In this document: piece after piece, positions 6,272 to 59,258 of the stretch
Numbering within the stretch: position 1 is the first letter of the stretch
How the letters are laid out: each line of letters starts with the position of its first letter
Assembly (NCBI GenBank): GCA_017622815.1
Contig: JAGAQH010000026.1
Location: 1 to 64,000 of the forward strand
Reading direction: 5' to 3'
From: Bacteroidaceae bacterium
Lineage (GTDB): Bacteria > Bacteroidota > Bacteroidia > Bacteroidales > Bacteroidaceae
Length of the DNA: 64,000 nt
Notes under the pieces: generated by a model
Databases searched by the model: none
The model's input: only the letters and a program-made list of their open reading frames with translations
What the model was told of the DNA's origin: nothing
Program-made: the position numbers and the translations under genes

Positions 6272-6307
6272 TTTTTATAGCAACTATAGTATCTATAGCA
6301 TCTATAG
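6272..6307. repeat. 9-bp tandem repeat with CTATAG core, 4 units
   Basis: Units TTTTTATAG, CAACTATAG, TATCTATAG and CATCTATAG follow without gaps in the 78-base interval between the pepP stop and the C1 peptidase start. The same 9-bp pattern recurs at 13415-13432, 48125-48169 and 48934-48987. Confidence 0.85.
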
Positions 6308-6310
6308 TAT

Positions 6311-13414: not shown

Positions 13415-13432
13415 TCTCTATAGTCTCTATAG
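13415..13432. repeat. 9-bp CTATAG repeat, 2 full units
   Basis: TCTCTATAG twice, followed by the decayed TTTCTATTC, in the era-der gap just after the era stop. Same family as 6272-6307. Confidence 0.8.
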
Positions 13433-13479
13433 TTTCTATTCCCCTCCCTTAAAGACCAACCCTCAAAAACAAAACAACG

Positions 13480-23993: not shown

Positions 23994-24013
23994 CTTAGTA
24001 AATAACACAAGAA

Positions 24014-24121
24014 GACCCTCCCCCTTACCCCTCCGCAAGGGAGGGGAGTAGTTACTGCAGACTGACGGAAAACTCAGTTCATTCTACTCCCCTCCCTTGC
24101 GGAGGGGTGAGGGGGAGGGTC
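24014..24121. repeat. 108-bp near-perfect inverted repeat between tig and clpP
   Basis: Arms 24014-24051 and 24084-24121, 38 bases each, match at 37 of 38 positions around a 32-base loop. Each arm is itself a small hairpin (CCCCTCC-GCA-AGGGAGGGG). The loop contains ACTGA and TCAGT that can pair. It resembles a MITE or a transcribed hairpin; no transposase is near. Related C/G-rich hairpins occur at 41356-41400 and 48846-48902. Confidence 0.9.
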
Positions 24122-28488: not shown

Positions 28489-28588
28489 GGCTTTCCTGCG
28501 GCCGGCATTCGGGGCACATCGCCGGCATCGGAATTTGTGTGCCCCGACAACAGGGAGCCGTTCTCGTTGAGGACGGCTCCCTGTTGTC
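28489..28588. repeat. Hairpins after recQ
   Basis: GGGGCACA (28511-28518) pairs with TGTGCCCC (28538-28545). GACAACAGGGAGCCG (28546-28560) pairs perfectly with CGGCTCCCTGTTGTC (28574-28588), a 15-bp stem. No T-run follows; instead the 23-bp repeat array begins. Confidence 0.75.
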
Positions 28589-28726
28589 CTGGGTGGCTCG
28601 TCCTTGTTGTCCTGGGTGGCTCGTCCTTGTTGTCCTGGGTGGCTCGTCCTTGTTGTCCTGGGTGGCTCGTCCTTGTTGTCCTGGGTGGCTCGTCCTTGTT
28701 GTCCTGGGTGACTCGTCCTCGTTGTC
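28589..28726. repeat. Six tandem 23-bp repeats
   Basis: Unit CTGGGTGGCTCGTCCTTG plus TTGTC. Units 1-5 are identical and the sixth has 2 changes. No spacers lie between units, so this is not CRISPR. The unit end (TTGTTGTC) echoes the right arm of the preceding hairpin. Located between recQ and guaB. Confidence 0.95.
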
Positions 28727-28869
28727 CGGGGGACTACAAAAAGGCAGTCTTGCCTGCCCTATGGCCCCTTTGGGAAGGATGGGGAAGGGCATAGGGCAAG
28801 TGCAGTTTGGTGGCCTGGAAGTTTGCGCACTTCTTCGTGACTATGGACAATGCTTGAAGGCGCTTCCGT

Positions 28870-43208: not shown

Positions 43209-43253
43209 CTACAATGATTATAGGAGAGAAAAACACATTAAGTTCATTAGATT

Positions 43254-44519
43254 ATGACTACAGAAGACGAGAGCTGGCGCAAGCAGTTTGCCAGCGAGGG
43301 AAATGGTGGCGGTGATCGTCCCCAACGCCCTTCATTCGACCGCAACAACGGCGGTTATCAGAGAGAGAGAAGAGAGTATCGCTCCAATGATGGCTACAAC
43401 CGCGAGGGTGGCTACCATCATCGCGAGGGCGGTTACCAGAGAGAGAACAGAGACCGTCGTCCCGGCGGAGACTATAACCGTGGCGGTTACAGACAGCGCG
43501 AAGGCGGATACCAGAGCCGTCCCTATAACCGCGAGGGTGGCTATCAGCGTCGCGAGGGAGGCTATCAGCAGCGCCCCTACAACCGCGAAGGCGGCTATCA
43601 GCAGCGCGAGGGAGGTTTCCAGCAGCGCGAGGGTGGCTATCAGCAGCGTCCCTACAACCGTGAAGGCGGCTATCAGCAGCGCGAAGGCGGTTACCAGTCA
43701 CGTCCCGGTGGCTACAAGAAGCGCCCCCAGGGCTACAATCCTCATGCCAAGTACAGCATGAAGAAACAGATAGAGTACAAGGAGAAGAACTACGATCCCG
43801 ATGAACCCGTACGCCTGAACCGCTACCTGGCCAATGCTGGTGTGTGCAGCCGTCGCGAGGCCGACACCTTCATACAGGCCGGCGTTGTCAAGGTGAACGG
43901 CGTGGTGGTTACGGAACTCGGCACTAAGGTGAAGCGTAGCGACGAGGTGATGTTCCACGACCAGGCCATCAACATGGAGAAGAAGGTGTATGTGCTCCTG
44001 AACAAGCCCAAGGACTACGTTACCACAAGCGACGACCCCCAGAACCGCAAGACCGTGATGGAACTGGTGAAGAACGCCTGCCGCGAGCGCATCTATCCCG
44101 TGGGCCGTCTGGACCGCAATACCACCGGTGTGCTCCTGTTCACCAACGATGGCGATCTGGCTACCAAACTGACACACCCCCAGTACCTCAAGAAGAAGAT
44201 ATACCACGTGTTCTGCGATAAGAATGTCACCGCTGCCGACCTTCGCCAGATTGCCGACGGCATCATGCTGGAGGATGGCGAGATACATGCCGATGCCATC
44301 GACTATGCCCACGAGACAGACAAGAAGCAGGTTGGCATAGAGATACACAGCGGACGCAACCGCATCGTGCGCCGTATCTTCGAACACCTTGGCTACAAGG
44401 TGGTGAAGTTGGACCGCGTCTACTTTGCCGGTCTTACCAAGAAGAACGTGAAGCGCGGCGACTGGCGTTTCCTCACCCAGGATGAGGTGAACATGCTCAA
44501 GATGGGAGCCTTCGAGTAA
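43254..44519 (+). CDS. rluB: 23S rRNA pseudouridine synthase (RluB type) with Arg/Gly/Tyr-rich N-terminal repeats
   Basis: 421 residues. The first 160 or so form a low-complexity tail built of REGGYQQRPYN- and REGGYQQ-type repeats (about 14 copies of xREGGYxxR), rich in Arg, Gly, Gln and Tyr. Then come an S4 RNA-binding domain (VRLNRYLANAGVCSRREAD) and a RsuA/RluB catalytic domain with the Asp in YPVGRLDRNTTGVLLFTNDGDLA. It modifies a uridine in rRNA; the exact position is unknown. Such Arg/Gly tails are expected to bind RNA and be disordered. It lies 116 bases after purB. Confidence 0.9.
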   Translation: MTTEDESWRKQFASEGNGGGDRPQRPSFDRNNGGYQRERREYRSNDGYNREGGYHHREGGYQRENRDRRPGGDYNRGGYRQREGGYQSRPYNREGGYQRREGGYQQRPYNREGGYQQREGGFQQREGGYQQRPYNREGGYQQREGGYQSRPGGYKKRPQGYNPHAKYSMKKQIEYKEKNYDPDEPVRLNRYLANAGVCSRREADTFIQAGVVKVNGVVVTELGTKVKRSDEVMFHDQAINMEKKVYVLLNKPKDYVTTSDDPQNRKTVMELVKNACRERIYPVGRLDRNTTGVLLFTNDGDLATKLTHPQYLKKKIYHVFCDKNVTAADLRQIADGIMLEDGEIHADAIDYAHETDKKQVGIEIHSGRNRIVRRIFEHLGYKVVKLDRVYFAGLTKKNVKRGDWRFLTQDEVNMLKMGAFE

Positions 44520-46113: not shown

Positions 46114-48108
46114 TTATTGGAGAGAACTTCTGTTTTCGCAAGAACTGCCCAGCACCCCCAGCCACTTCTCTGCCAGTTCCGACTTGGTGCGGATGTGTTC
46201 TTCCACAGCCATGACGAAGGGGTTGGACTCGAACTGGCCGCGGACTTCGCTGAAGTCCAGACTTTGTGTCTCGGTGCTCTGGCCGTCGAAACCGAAGCCG
46301 GTGCGGGCACTCAGGGAGAACTCCTTGCGTGCGTCCTGCCATAGCATTTGGTCGAGGCTGACCACGGAGTCCTTCCATCTTTTTATTATATCGGAGAGCA
46401 TGGCGGGTGTTATCTCGCTGTTTTCGTCTATTCCGTAGAAGTCCAGCATGGTGCGATATGCCCATTGCCATTCCAGATCGTAGTAGTTGCGGTGCATGGC
46501 AGAGAGTTCGGCATTTACCTCTTCCAGGGAGGTTGTTTCTCCGTTCTGTATCCTGTCCAGCAGGGGGACAAGGAGTTTCTTTGGCGCTATCAGTCCGCAG
46601 AGGTCCACCCAGTCGCCCGTTCCGTCCTCGCTGGTGGGGCGGAAAAGGTCCAATCTGCCCTCCACTTTCTCCAGACGTGAGATGACGCTGTTGCCCAGGA
46701 ACTTGTTGATGGCCATGGTGTAGAGGCTTATGCCCTTTTCCATGGCGCTGCCAGTGATGCGTGCGCTCTGGTAGGCGTATGTGTCGGACGTGGCACCGGA
46801 AATCTCTTTCAGTTGCTTCAAGGTCTTCAGTCCGCGCAGCATCTTCTGTATGGTATAGGGTGAGAGCAGGTTGAAGTTGACGTTGTCCAGTCGGCCCTCC
46901 TCGTGCCTCTTGTCGCGTCTGGGCCATTTCTGTGCATCGCGGATGGTGCCCACACTGCGCAGGGCCACGGCCGGGGCAAGATATGTGACGCCGTCCTTTT
47001 CTATCAGGTAACTGAACGGCATGTCCGAGGTGTCGGGGTTTGTGGTATGTCGTCCCATCACCAGCGAGAAGGCACCTATGCGTGCCGGCCACAGGATGTA
47101 GGAGTCGCTGGCGGTCTTGGCACCACGCTCCATGGCCCCCTGGTGTATGGGGCCAAGTTTGTACATGTGGTTGCTCTGGTTGCTGCCGCTGCCGGCATTC
47201 ATGAACGAGAACATGCCGGCTATGAGCAGGGTGCTCTTGTGGTGCGTGACGGTGAACGGGCCGGCAAAGATGGAGCAGGCCTCGCCGTTCTCCTCGTGGC
47301 AGTTGCAGAAGAAGAGGGAGTCGGAGGCGCTGTAACCGTGCTTGAAGGTGCAGGCCTGACCCACGAAGCAACGTGTCAGCGTGGTGCAGTCCTCTATGCA
47401 ACTGCCGTCCAGGACTATGAAGTCGTCGGCAATGACACCGTAGCCAATGTGTATGGGGGATTCCGTTCTGGACATAAGCGAACCGTTCTTCAGGCGGCCT
47501 GCCCCCTCTATCTTGGAGGCGGGACCCACGTAGACGTTCTTTATGTAGCCCGTGTCCACTATGGTGCTGTGTGCTGCTATGGTGCCACGTGTGCCGGTCC
47601 GTTCCTTGGCGCGTTCCATGGCCATTTCCTTCATGTGCCGCACCAGCATGGGGCGGTGGCGGTACATGGCAGTGATGTATGCCTCGTGCGCCGTCAGGCG
47701 GTCGTGTATGGTCACCTCTCTGCCCCCTGTCTCGCAAAGTACGGAAACCTCGGTTCCGCATCCGAAACTTGTCTCGCCGTCCACCAGGATGATGTCGCAG
47801 TTCTCTATGAAGCAATCCTCCTCGATGTCGTAGTTGGCAATGTAGTTCTTGATGTTCTCTATGCAGCAGTCGTTGCCCACGCAAACGTTGTGCAGCGTGG
47901 CATGGAAGATGCCGCTATGCTTCTGTATGCCTCCGGGCATGAGGAAGGATTTCTTGAACTTTCCTATGCGGCATGTGCCGGAAAAGCGCACTTCGCGCAC
48001 GTACTTCAGGTCCAGTTCGGGGTGGATGCTTATCTGTGTCCAATCCTCGGCGGTGCAGTGCTGGGCTTCCAACTGGCTGATTTGCTGGGGTGAGAGGGAA
48101 AGGTGCAT
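46114..48108 (-). CDS. DUF4954 family protein, left-handed beta-helix
   Basis: 664 residues. The first 400 or so show repeated short strands typical of a hexapeptide beta-helix (KIEGAGRLKNGSLMSRTESPIHIGYGVIADDFIVLDGSCIEDCTTLTR); the last 250 are helical. This composition matches Bacteroidetes DUF4954 proteins, which resemble sugar-nucleotide acyltransferases but have no known activity. No signal peptide. It is downstream of gluQ with 56 bases between, filled by the CTATAG repeat. Confidence 0.85.
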   Translation of the reverse strand: MHLSLSPQQISQLEAQHCTAEDWTQISIHPELDLKYVREVRFSGTCRIGKFKKSFLMPGGIQKHSGIFHATLHNVCVGNDCCIENIKNYIANYDIEEDCFIENCDIILVDGETSFGCGTEVSVLCETGGREVTIHDRLTAHEAYITAMYRHRPMLVRHMKEMAMERAKERTGTRGTIAAHSTIVDTGYIKNVYVGPASKIEGAGRLKNGSLMSRTESPIHIGYGVIADDFIVLDGSCIEDCTTLTRCFVGQACTFKHGYSASDSLFFCNCHEENGEACSIFAGPFTVTHHKSTLLIAGMFSFMNAGSGSNQSNHMYKLGPIHQGAMERGAKTASDSYILWPARIGAFSLVMGRHTTNPDTSDMPFSYLIEKDGVTYLAPAVALRSVGTIRDAQKWPRRDKRHEEGRLDNVNFNLLSPYTIQKMLRGLKTLKQLKEISGATSDTYAYQSARITGSAMEKGISLYTMAINKFLGNSVISRLEKVEGRLDLFRPTSEDGTGDWVDLCGLIAPKKLLVPLLDRIQNGETTSLEEVNAELSAMHRNYYDLEWQWAYRTMLDFYGIDENSEITPAMLSDIIKRWKDSVVSLDQMLWQDARKEFSLSARTGFGFDGQSTETQSLDFSEVRGQFESNPFVMAVEEHIRTKSELAEKWLGVLGSSCENRSSLQ

Positions 48109-48124
48109 GGGATGTCTTTTTATA

Positions 48125-48169
48125 TTTATATAGCCTATATAGCCTCTATAGCCTCTATAGTCTCTATAG
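48125..48169. repeat. 9-bp CTATAG repeat, 5 units, supplying the gluQ stop codon
   Basis: TTTATATAG, CCTATATAG, CCTCTATAG, CCTCTATAG and TCTCTATAG, in register. The TAG stop of gluQ (48166-48164 on the minus strand) is part of the last unit, and the preceding Leu codon is formed by it too. Confidence 0.9.
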
Positions 48170-49366
48170 CATTATTTGCTTGTCTAACATTATGTCCTCG
48201 GTGGGGACCTTGTCCCACGAGAAGAGGGTAAGGAGCTCGGTGGGTGTTATGTGCGCCGGGGTGTCGGTCAGGCCGGCGAGGTGTGCCAGCAGGCCTATGA
48301 TTTCCCGGGCAGTGGTGCCTTTGTCGCGGAGATACCCCAGGTCCATGCTCTTGTCGCGCTTGCATAGACGCTGTCCCTCGGCGTTGCAGAGCAGAGGGTG
48401 GTGGAAGAAGTTAACGGTGAGCGGTGAGTGGTGAGCGGTGAGCGAATTGTTTTTCCGTTTTAATCCCGCTTCGCGGTCTTTTCCTCCTTGTTGCTCGGCA
48501 TAATCAAAATAAATTTTGCTTCTGCTCTCGCTTCCTGCGTCGGTTCCGTTTTCCGTTTTCCGTTCAAAAAACAATAGTTCTCTAAGGTGTATCTGTTGTG
48601 GCGAGGACAGGAGCAGGTCTCGTCCGCGCACAATTTCCGTTATGCCCATCAGGGCATCGTCCACCACTACGGCAAGTTGGTAGGCCCAGGCACCGTCCTT
48701 GCGGCGGACGATGTAGTCTCCGCAGTGTTCGGCAAGGTTTATGTCATGCTTTCCATAGTGCCCGTCGGTGAAAGGGATGGTGCAGTCGGGGACGATGAGG
48801 CGGGTGGTGGCGGGGGTAACGGTGAGCGGTGAGCGGTGAGGATACATACCCCCTCCGGAGCGTTGCTCCTCGTTCCCCTGACTCAGGGGGACAGTAGGGG
48901 GTAGGGTGGTGGCGGGAGCAGTGCGGATTACAGAATCTATAGAACCTATAGAGCCTATAGAATCTATAGCACCTATAGCATCTATAGCCCTTGGCCTGCA
49001 CGTCCCCTTATACACCACTCTGCCGTCGGTTTCGTGTGGTGCTTGGGTGGCCATTATGTCGGCACGAGTGCAATGGCAGGGGTAGGTGAGCCCCATTTCC
49101 GTCAGGCGTCGGAGGTATTCCTCGTAGATGTGGCCACGTTGGCTTTGCCATACGGGTTCGCCATCCCAGGGGAGGCCGAGCCATTGCAGGTCGTCCATCA
49201 GTTGGAGGGCATATTCCTTGCGGCTGCGCTGAGGGTCGAGGTCTTCAATGCGCAATACCCACTCGCCCCCTTGGCTCTTGGCGGAAAGCCAGGAGAGCAG
49301 GGCGCAGAATACGTTGCCCAGGTGCATGCGTCCCGTGGGGGAAGGTGCAAATCTGCCTCGTGTCAT
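48164..49366 (-). CDS. gluQ: Glutamyl-Q tRNA(Asp) synthetase with in-frame repeat insertions
   Basis: 400 residues, against about 290-300 for the family. The core is intact: FAPSPTGRMHLGN (HIGH region), a zinc-site CHCTRAD, AWAYQLAVVVDDALMGITEIVRGRDLLLSSPQQ, and LCKRDKSMDLG (KMSKS-like). Two blocks do not belong to the family: about residues 127-185 and 264-318. They are encoded by repeat DNA (9-bp CTATAG, 7-bp GGTGAGC and GAAAACG, a C/G-rich hairpin) that is otherwise intergenic. The start at 49366 is set by the -7 box at 49393-49400. GluQ adds glutamate to the queuosine of tRNA-Asp. Activity may or may not survive. Confidence 0.85.
   Translation of the reverse strand: MTRGRFAPSPTGRMHLGNVFCALLSWLSAKSQGGEWVLRIEDLDPQRSRKEYALQLMDDLQWLGLPWDGEPVWQSQRGHIYEEYLRRLTEMGLTYPCHCTRADIMATQAPHETDGRVVYKGTCRPRAIDAIGAIDSIGSIGSIDSVIRTAPATTLPPTVPLSQGNEEQRSGGGMYPHRSPLTVTPATTRLIVPDCTIPFTDGHYGKHDINLAEHCGDYIVRRKDGAWAYQLAVVVDDALMGITEIVRGRDLLLSSPQQIHLRELLFFERKTENGTDAGSESRSKIYFDYAEQQGGKDREAGLKRKNNSLTAHHSPLTVNFFHHPLLCNAEGQRLCKRDKSMDLGYLRDKGTTAREIIGLLAHLAGLTDTPAHITPTELLTLFSWDKVPTEDIMLDKQIML
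48413..48575. repeat. Repeat insertion 2 inside gluQ
   Basis: Contains four GGTGAGC-type 7-bp units (48416-48443) and, at the other end, a short GAAAACG-type array read on the minus strand (48547-48574). It encodes about residues 264-318, ending SLTAHHSPLTVNFF. It lies between SSPQQIHLRELLF and HHPLLCNAEG of the catalytic core. Confidence 0.8.
48821..48903. repeat. Repeat insertion 1a inside gluQ: GGTGAGC units and a C/G-rich hairpin
   Basis: Three GGTGAGC units (48821-48841), then TACCCCCTCC, GGAGCGTTGCTCC, TCCCCTGACTCAGGGGGA and GGGGGTA, which form nested hairpins (48846-48902). In frame it reads TVPLSQGNEEQRSGGGMYP then HRSPLTVTP. Confidence 0.8.
48934..48987. repeat. Repeat insertion 1b inside gluQ: 9-bp CTATAG, 6 units
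   Basis: Six perfect 9-bp units (AATCTATAG, AACCTATAG, AGCCTATAG, AATCTATAG, CACCTATAG, CATCTATAG). Read on the minus strand they encode (A/S)-I-(D/G) triplets without a stop. Confidence 0.92.
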
Positions 49367-49392
49367 ATAGGGAGGTTTTCTCTTTTGACAGG

Positions 49393-49400
49393 CAAAGGTA
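49393..49400 (-). promoter_or_regulatory. -7 box TACCTTTG for gluQ
   Basis: CAAAGGTA on the plus strand, 27 bases before the ATG at 49366. It lies inside the longer frame starting at 49462. Confidence 0.65.
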
Positions 49401-49444
49401 TTGCTTTTTCTTTGAATAATCAACCGTGTTTCATGTAAATATAC

Positions 49445-49482
49445 AAAAAGCCCCGACTGCACATCGTTGCGGTCGGGGCTTG
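49445..49482 (-). terminator. Terminator after groEL
   Basis: Read on the minus strand: AAGCCCCGACC...GTCGGGGCTT followed by TTTGTAT, 23 bases past the groEL stop. Confidence 0.85.
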
Positions 49483-49504
49483 TAATATATCTGTAGATGT
49501 CTGA

Positions 49505-51181
<1,677 letters not shown>

Positions 51182-57718: not shown

Positions 57719-59113
57719 ATGAAGAAAACCATTTGGCTGGCATTGTTGCTACCGGCAATGATGCCTGCTTCTCGAATGCGTGCCCAGGATACCCTTGCCA
57801 TAGGAGAGGGTAGGGTGATGGGCCTGCACGAAATCTATGAATTGGCCGAGCGCGAGAGCCGTGCCATACGAGTAGGTAGCATTGGGCTGGAGGCCGCCAC
57901 TGAAGGCGAGAAAGCCGCCCGCAGTGCCCGTTTGCCACAGGTGAACCTAAGCCTGTCTGGCAGTTACATTGGCAATGCCACGCTGATGAGCCGTGGGTTC
58001 TCCACCTCAGGGACCACGGACGTTATCCTGGCAGGCCTGGGACCACAGAAGGTGACGAACGGCAAGCAGGACACTCCGCACTGGGGCAACTATTTCACGG
58101 CCCAGGTCACTCAGGTGATATACTCCGGAGGTGCCATATCCTCGGGCATACGCATGGCAGGTCTGGGCAAAGAGATGGCTGTGCTGGACGTGGAGAAGGA
58201 CCGCCAGCAGGTGCGATTCCTCCTGACGGGCTTCTATCTGGGCCTGTTCCGCCTGGGCAACCAGTTGAAGGTGGTGGACAAGAACATTGCCCTTACCAGG
58301 CAGGTGATAGGGAACATGAAGGCCAGGATGGAGCAGGGCACTGTGTTGCAGAACGACCTTACCCGATATGAGTTGCAGTTGCAGAGCCTCCAGTTGATAC
58401 GCACCCGTTTGCAGGATGCCAGGTCCATCATCAACCATCAGTTGGTCACCACCCTGCATCTGCCCGAAGGTACGGTGGTGTTGCCTGACTCGGCATATCT
58501 TGTCTCCACCGGCCTTGCACTGAAGGCACATGAGGCGGAGGATGCCTGGCAGACCCTGGCTCAGAGCAATAATCCTGAGTTGCGACAGGCAGACCTTGCC
58601 GTGTCCATGGCAGAGGAGAAGGTGAACGGCGTGAAAGCCGCCTCACGTCCCATGGTGGCTATGGTCATAGAGGATAACCTGGGCGGTCCTTTTGTGAACG
58701 ACCTGATTCCCGTGGATGCCAACGTGAACTCATGGTTCGTGGGCCTGGGAGTGAAATACGAACTCAGCAGTCTTTGGAACAACCGCAACGCCATACGCAA
58801 GGCCAAGAAGGAGCACCGCCAGTCGGTCGAGCGTCTGGCCATGGCACGCGAGCACATGGACTCCCGTGTGCAGGCTGAGTATGTCAACTTCCTTACCTCC
58901 TTTACCGACGTGAAGACCCAGCGCAAACAGGTGGATCTGGCAGTTCAGAACTACGATGTGGTGAACAACCGCTATGAGAACGACCTGGCTCTGCTCACCG
59001 ACATGCTGGATGCTTCCAATATGAAACTGGCGGCAGAAATGGCACTGGTGGATGCCTACATCTCCCTGCTCTACAACTACTACAAACTGAAATATACCGT
59101 GGGAGGGCTTTGA
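57719..59113 (+). CDS. TolC-family outer membrane efflux protein
   Basis: 464 residues with a signal peptide (MKKTIWLALLLPAMMPASRMRAQ). Two OEP repeats of long helices (LRQADLAVSMAEEKVNGVKAASRP near 290) and beta-strand stretches. It makes the outer-membrane channel for export with the downstream HlyD-like and MFS genes. The ATG follows ATAATATAATAAGGT. The 7-bp repeat array starts at its stop codon. Confidence 0.92.
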   Translation: MKKTIWLALLLPAMMPASRMRAQDTLAIGEGRVMGLHEIYELAERESRAIRVGSIGLEAATEGEKAARSARLPQVNLSLSGSYIGNATLMSRGFSTSGTTDVILAGLGPQKVTNGKQDTPHWGNYFTAQVTQVIYSGGAISSGIRMAGLGKEMAVLDVEKDRQQVRFLLTGFYLGLFRLGNQLKVVDKNIALTRQVIGNMKARMEQGTVLQNDLTRYELQLQSLQLIRTRLQDARSIINHQLVTTLHLPEGTVVLPDSAYLVSTGLALKAHEAEDAWQTLAQSNNPELRQADLAVSMAEEKVNGVKAASRPMVAMVIEDNLGGPFVNDLIPVDANVNSWFVGLGVKYELSSLWNNRNAIRKAKKEHRQSVERLAMAREHMDSRVQAEYVNFLTSFTDVKTQRKQVDLAVQNYDVVNNRYENDLALLTDMLDASNMKLAAEMALVDAYISLLYNYYKLKYTVGGL

Positions 59114-59167
59114 AAACTGAAAACGGAAAACTGAAAACTGAAAACGGAAAACGGAAAACGGAAAACG
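59112..59167. repeat. 7-bp GAAAACG/GAAAACT repeat, 8 units
   Basis: Eight perfect 7-bp units GAAAAC(T/G) beginning within the TGA stop of the TolC-like gene, followed by a run of unique sequence to the HlyD-like start. Confidence 0.93.
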
Positions 59168-59258
59168 GTAGACGCTTGATTGGGACTGTGTAAATATGTC
59201 CCATCTGTGATTTCCTGTGCTCCAACTAAATACAAAAAACAGTCAATTAAAAAATATA

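Follow-up and report, generated by a model that had tools for sequence, protein, structure and literature searches.

How can repeat DNA of the kind that lies between genes come to sit in frame within a gene? The question is raised by the gluQ gene in a 64,000-nucleotide stretch of a Bacteroidaceae genome (the window). A sequence-only reading of this locus had claimed that the product, a glutamyl-Q tRNA(Asp) synthetase, exceeds its family by about 100 residues, and that the surplus falls into two blocks matching repeats that are intergenic elsewhere in the window. The excess length is correct, because 35 of the 58 GluQ frames extracted from related loci (the window species included) encode 293–308 aa, compared with 400 aa here; one frame is a 191-aa fragment, and the remainder are longer. 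When compared with models of the GluQRS family, the product scores 266.7 with NF004314, above the cut-off of 256, and 269.2 bits with TIGR03838, below the cut-off of 276.7.

Composition and coding status of gluQ

Both blocks of gluQ are in frame and free of stop codons (Table 1). The DNA of block A is made up of a CTATAG 9-mer array, a nested hairpin, and a GGTGAGC array, and that of block B of a GAAAACG array, a core of ~100 bp, and another GGTGAGC array; the RNA fold of the gluQ-B core has a z of -0.90. In the solved-structure alignments listed (2cfo, 6b1p, and 1nzj, the last being the E. coli GluQRS), the matched stretches break off before the blocks and resume after them. A known RNA element at gluQ was also considered and dropped, since an Rfam scan of window positions 47900-49600 found nothing above a gathering score.

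Table 1. Repeat features of gluQ and related repeat copies in the window
Feature	Position	Strand	Remark
gluQ (glutamyl-Q tRNA(Asp) synthetase, 400 aa, two in-frame repeat blocks)	48164..49366	-	
Block A (residues ~125-187; directly follows the final zinc-ligand Cys, GTCR, and precedes the conserved R..VP stretch)	~48806..48994	-	alignment
Block B (residues ~266-317; between HLRELLF and the FFHHPLLCN / KRDKS part)	~48416..48571	-	alignment
CTATAG 9-bp array, block A	48932..48987	-	translated as AIDAIGAIDSIGSIGSIDS
Nested-hairpin module, block A	48841..48904	-	translated as LPPTVPLSQGNEEQRSGGGMY; RNA fold z -2.59
GGTGAGC x3 array, block A	48820..48840	-	coding strand GCTCACC, translated HRSPLT
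13-bp direct repeat GGGTGGTGGCGGG, copy 1	48802..48814	.	edge of the 102-bp segment absent from the sister
13-bp direct repeat GGGTGGTGGCGGG, copy 2	48904..48916	.	
GAAAACG array, block B	48544..48564	-	translated ERKTENG
Core repeat (~100 bp), block B	48451..48552	-	
GGTGAGC array, block B	48415..48444	-	translated SLTAHHSPLT
CTATAG array, spacer downstream of gluQ	48129..48170	.	extends to the gluQ stop codon
CTATAG array, intergenic	6276..6310	.	
CTATAG array, intergenic	13415..13439	.	
GAAAACG array, intergenic	59112..59168	.	8 units
P102 copy in the window	24010..24121	.	

Outside the blocks, gluQ is under purifying selection. With the blocks excluded, dN/dS of the gluQ core is 0.020/0.147 relative to the sister species (locus L009), 0.046/0.676 relative to L010, and 0.051/1.10 relative to L011 (final segment trimmed by 4 residues); dS relative to L012 was not computable, and gluQ is the one repeat-carrying gene for which dN/dS was calculated. 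Residues H15, G17, N18, C97, C99, Y119, C123, K336, and R337 are invariant in 39 sequences, and we take them to serve as class I catalytic motifs and zinc ligands, as in GluQRS (YadB). Neither stops nor frameshifts are present in gluQ of five species. Judged by its sequence, gluQ looks functional, and the earlier statement that the catalytic motifs are intact and that no stop is introduced is borne out. A strong GluQ match is found in 20 of the 61 same-genus genomes (the window species included; these are drafts, 61–97% complete), and thus the gene looks dispensable in the genus.

Dispersed repeats in the genome and in other genes

The genome of the window species (2.57 Mb, 88% complete, draft) contains 7- and 9-bp arrays, the ~100-bp core, the nested hairpin, and a palindrome of ~102 bp. 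Within the window, the array patterns CTATAGNNNCTATAG, GGTGAGCGGTGAG, and GAAAACGGAAAACGG have 10, 4, and 4 matches, respectively, each compared with 0 in 100 shuffles. The proposal that the blocks match repeats that are intergenic in the window stands for CTATAG and GAAAACG, but not for GGTGAGC, the core, and the hairpin, whose dispersed copies lie elsewhere in the genome, beyond the window. The exact GGTGAGC pattern, the array of which has stops on one strand, does not occur in the window outside gluQ, and no further window copy of the core or hairpin is present among the matches listed for blocks A and B. Genome-wide, the DNA of block B has at least 78 matches and that of block A at least 56 (E<=10, self included); both counts are lower bounds because only 40 of 159 candidates (B) and 40 of 72 (A) were scored. 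Similarly, the 19-base GAAAACG pattern AAAACGGAAAACGGAAAAC with at most one mismatch has 164 genome matches (overlapping ones counted), compared with 0 for the reversed control. One copy, which by eye is located in a spacer at C20:159014, matches the gluQ-B core with 100% identity over 102 bp.

The palindromic element of ~102 bp, for which we coined the name P102, has ends of GGACCC...GGGTCC. In two folded copies, with hairpin z of -6.39 and -5.29, the arms pair along nearly their full length as MITE-like terminal inverted repeats, which the arrays lack. P102 has at least 61 matches in its own genome (both strands counted for some copies; 40 of 87 candidates scored), and it is in frame in genes for a U32 peptidase, an ABC-F ATPase, a pseudouridine synthase, and a QueA-NUDIX protein. 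An open frame retained in intergenic copies was considered as a mark of coding selection; in the 23 matches examined, several frames are about equally open. Single queries recovered neither an exact 21-base P102 end from viral contigs, nor a P102 match from phages, nor a core match from plasmids, and carriage of the repeats by phages or plasmids was dropped as a candidate.

Two further tandem repeats were noted in the window. A 23-bp unit of ~6.7 copies at 28560-28734 forms a tract that is ~92 bp shorter in the sister (BLAST edges), and a pseudouridine synthase-like protein (by eye; 43253-44519, plus strand) has a long N-terminal REGGYQQ / RPYN tandem-repeat tract, which is an ordinary protein repeat and not of the intergenic type.

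In a sample of the genome comprising the window and 20 stretches (460 kb, selected partly for known matches), 162 repeat stretches were found: 98 intergenic, 29 at ORF ends, 18 at boundaries, and 17 deep in ORFs. Ten of these 17 are intergenic-type repeats, and they are distributed among eight genes: gluQ (three stretches), M18 aminopeptidase, RmlD, U32 peptidase, ABC-F ATPase, DUF3987 (counted though under the Pfam cut-off, 22.5 vs 27 bits), DNA polymerase I (PolA), and a DEAD-box helicase. The other seven were excluded: four are, by eye, protein repeats of the ordinary sort (BspA-like repeats and an RGG-type tract), and three are in ORFs that have no Pfam match (two in L188, and L192:16512). 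Wider looks in the genome added a second ABC-F gene (heptamer), the pseudouridine synthase (P102), and QueA-NUDIX (P102), so that ten genes besides gluQ carry in-frame repeats of the intergenic type. The earlier suggestion of a spreading mechanism that also enters genes is supported by these ten genes, although the agents are several interchanging repeat kinds and not one element. A resemblance to the palindromic elements of Rickettsia, with different repeats, had also been suggested, and the presence of P102 in frame in unrelated genes agrees with it.

Most inserts can be placed relative to protein domains. According to Pfam borders, PolA, both ABC-F proteins, and QueA-NUDIX carry their inserts between domains, and U32 and DEAD carry theirs beyond the last domain. 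The RmlD insert is opposite a gap in the solved homologue 1vl0, and the M18 insert, which adds ~8 residues, is inside a domain. We infer that the insert sites are all surface loops. Of 58 distinct exact heptamer arrays, 4 pass a coding score test on both flanks; the DEAD helicase array failed this two-sided test and is in frame by eye. GAAAACG arrays deep in genes have the reading TENGKRK, not RFPFSVF, in all six cases in the own genome. The RFPFSVF reading occurs near ORF starts (e.g. L175:8500 and L190:4544), where the true start may be downstream. Additionally, a radical SAM-like protein (by eye; L180:12525-13398, minus strand) has a heptamer-derived C-terminal tail, ENGKRKGEI.

Repeat kinds at coding slots in related species

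Sites A and B of gluQ hold repeats, in frame and stop-free, in the window species and at loci L009, L010, L011, and L012, and the kinds of repeat differ. At site B, the window species and L009 have arrays with two different core subfamilies, L010 has arrays with a palindromic compound, L011 passes from a GAAAACG array to a GCTCACC array with no intervening core, L012 has a degenerate array, and L042 has two GCTCACC units; at L013 and L014 these repeats are absent. The L010 gene holds almost identical compounds at sites A and B. At site A, the window species has one 9-mer more than L009, as well as 102 bp that are absent from L009 and are flanked by the 13-bp direct repeat. The difference could equally well have arisen by loss in L009 or by gain, because L010 has a homologous hairpin and array at this site.

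The DNA of block B has matches in the genomes of five of six relatives. G066, the source of L014, has no match and a gluQ without the block. G065, the source of L013, has nine matches, yet its gluQ also has no block. In the GluQ alignment, more distant members of the group also show extra blocks of other kinds at these positions: those at site A are S/L-rich in L018 and L027-L029, and those at site B are short. In GluQ of other clades the blocks are absent. Alignment with relatives is in accord with the sequence-only reading, in that the blocks are missing from other clades.

The nearest genome found, that of the sister species (G061, RGIG4159), is ~92% identical over aligned DNA, and slot lengths in the two genomes were measured between anchors. 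At five coding slots, flanks of 91.5–99.5% identity enclose a repeat that in the sister is absent, diverged, or of another kind. At gluQ A, the slot is 190 bp in the own genome and 79 bp in the sister; the aligned part (94.9%) is no more diverged than the flanks (91.5%), and the difference is the missing segment. At gluQ B (150 and 240 bp; flanks 95.5%), the cores are 79.1% identical, and a 93-bp part of the own core is found unchanged at another sister locus (L161), compared with 79.1% in the sister's own gluQ. For U32 (119 and 137 bp; flanks 97.5%), the element is 84.3% identical with 26 gap columns, and the own element is nearer to the one in an ABC-F gene 2.9 kb away (91.2% over 102 bp) than to the sister's U32. 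At the ABC-F slot (133 and 94 bp; 80.2% with 45 gap columns; flanks 98.0%), a 102-bp palindrome in the own genome is matched in position by a different palindrome in the sister. Likewise, at M18 (54 and 30 bp; flanks 99.5%), GAAAACG units in the own genome stand where the sister has GGTGAGC-type units. Turnover is not universal, because the PolA elements were inherited unchanged (117 bp in both, 98.3% identical without an indel, compared with 93.0% for the flanks).

These comparisons show that repeats of different kinds have been exchanged at fixed slots, and that some copies resemble repeats at other loci more closely than they resemble the orthologous one; recombination is deduced here from sequence comparison rather than observed directly. 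All five non-zero length differences between own and sister coding slots are multiples of 3, compared with 7 of 17 other own-sister indels (lengths from BLAST edges), a control that is weak because BLAST edges gave 88 where anchors give 90 (gluQ B). Direct repeats at three filled/empty pairs measure 13, 20, and ~30 bp (17 exact), with no one fixed size.

Further relatives extend the comparison. The PolA linker, which follows the 5'-3' exonuclease part, contains palindromic elements in the own genome and G061 and GAAAACG-type units in G062. The ABC-F linker, which precedes the C-terminal domain, differs widely among 11 sequences, and in G065 it contains 9-bp-type units such as CAGAATACT. The queA-NUDIX junction was examined in 8 loci. 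In G004, G005, G053, G064, and G065, queA ends in SS(L/I/M)L(I/V)P and a stop. In G062, queA and NUDIX form one frame with a short linker, and in the own genome they form one frame via a P102 linker. In the sister the two are separate, and two P102 halves are ~700 bp apart; two small ORFs in this ~700-bp insertion have no Pfam family above the cut-off. The loci of this own-sister comparison are L250 (C18:161946) and L347:1980-2860. Two queuosine-pathway genes, gluQ in the window and queA on C18, have repeat inserts, which may be coincidence.

Probable origin of the inserts and relation to known systems

Overall, repeats of non-coding DNA appear to be reshaping the linkers of proteins. The explanation that we regard as probable is that slippage and ectopic recombination move repeat modules, and that selection retains the copies that preserve the frame. 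Array units would expand by slippage, and modules would be carried from locus to locus through ectopic recombination, gene conversion, or template switching, presumably beginning where two loci have arrays, palindromes, or short direct repeats in common. Selection would purge copies that break the frame, add stops, or are read as hydrophobic peptide. The insertion sites would be tolerant loops or linkers, many of them between or after protein domains, and GluQ, PolA, and others would thereby retain function with an altered linker.

MITE- or RPE-like transposition, in which a transposase acting in trans or since lost inserts palindromic elements and the arrays are secondary, would account for P102, with its defined MITE-like ends, its one long hairpin, its abundance, and its in-frame copies in four genes. 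We nevertheless consider it unlikely. The search for mobilising enzymes was directed at the Y1/RAYT family only, and PF01797 has 0 matches in the own genome (88% complete; controls matched in 5 of 14). PF01797 is above the cut-off in 17 of the 61 same-genus genomes (6 with E below 1e-15), and RAYT mobilisation was rejected on the basis of the missing Y1_Tnp match in the own genome and the patchy distribution in the genus. Furthermore, there is no fixed target duplication in the few filled/empty pairs examined, and the M18 slot indicates that non-palindromic arrays are also exchanged.

If loops had instead gained low-complexity codons by slow local slippage, the blocks would merely resemble intergenic arrays. 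Arrays are prone to slippage, which may also have produced the S/L-rich site-A blocks of L027-L029. However, local slippage hardly explains the core and the palindromes, because the ~100-bp core is non-tandem and identical to an intergenic copy, and the ~102-bp palindromes are complete. Such drift may hold for simple arrays; it is contradicted for the core and palindrome modules, and as a general account it is very improbable.

Misjoining at repeats during short-read MAG assembly has still less to recommend it. All of the genomes are drafts, L009-L013 are MAGs of one project (RGIG), and repeats are the usual cause of misjoins. However, the genes described retain their frame and their two halves, blocks occur at the same two gluQ sites in five genomes, and the modules (up to ~120 bp) are short relative to usual read pairs. 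Finally, that gluQ and the other carriers are decaying pseudogenes accumulating repeats is scarcely credible: gluQ is indeed patchy in the genus, but for gluQ this is contradicted by the low dN/dS and the intact invariant residues, with five species free of stops and frameshifts, and the repeats are also present in PolA and other conserved genes.

Repeat movement by slippage and recombination, our preferred explanation, can be compared with several described systems. The palindromic elements of Rickettsia (RPE; Ogata et al.) are short dispersed repeats found in frame in unrelated conserved genes, to which they add tens of residues (PMC10969869, PMC3733652). P102 is alike in being a palindromic, dispersed element of ~100 bp that is in frame in unrelated genes. 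In contrast, the 7- and 9-bp arrays and the gluQ-B core are not palindromic elements of that kind, and the system described here differs in its Bacteroidaceae host, its several repeat kinds, its mosaic core, and the difference in slot repeat kind between sister species; RPEs were compared by their description. Intragenic REPs have been described in ORFs of DNA polymerase I, RNA helicases, tRNA synthetases, and tRNA pseudouridine synthase, and recB of two Xanthomonas species has different REPs at about the same site (PMC3733652). Nearly the same gene classes are affected here. The REP families are GTAG- or CGTC-tagged and partly tied to RAYT (PMC3733652), whereas the own genome has no RAYT match. 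The mention of Bacteroidetes in that source concerns CGTC repeats generally, and its section on intragenic REPs names no Bacteroidetes gene (PMC3733652).

Within the Bacteroidales, the BrickBuilt MITE of Porphyromonas gingivalis is also repeat-containing, with a 23-bp minisatellite, but is described as always intergenic (PMC4596501), unlike the in-frame genic copies reported here. Heptamer arrays of TAACTGA are mostly intergenic and are described in Beggiatoaceae, Cyanobacteria, and some Bacteroidetes (PMC4679880). The arrays of the window species share the 7-bp unit length and the location mostly between genes. The unit is different: forward TAACTGA contains stops, whereas GAAAACG is stop-free and is found in genes here. 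In a literature search with most subscription papers outside its scope, no report of in-frame intergenic repeats in Bacteroidales was recognised.

A broader reading is that this lineage continually exchanges repeat cassettes between intergenic DNA and protein linkers via an undescribed recombination or replication route, which would alter the linkers of sister species and join QueA to NUDIX, and that part of the resulting linker diversity would be useful. We put this forward tentatively and consider it doubtful as a whole. Rickettsia and some REP-rich bacteria are the best-known hosts of in-frame selfish repeats, and what differs here is their occurrence in a Bacteroidaceae group whose named relatives are from ruminant guts, with mixed repeat kinds and swaps between sister species. 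Because the mixed kinds differ between sisters at the same slots, these genes offer natural experiments on linker tolerance, on the spread of repeats, and, in the case of QueA-NUDIX, on the origin of a fusion.
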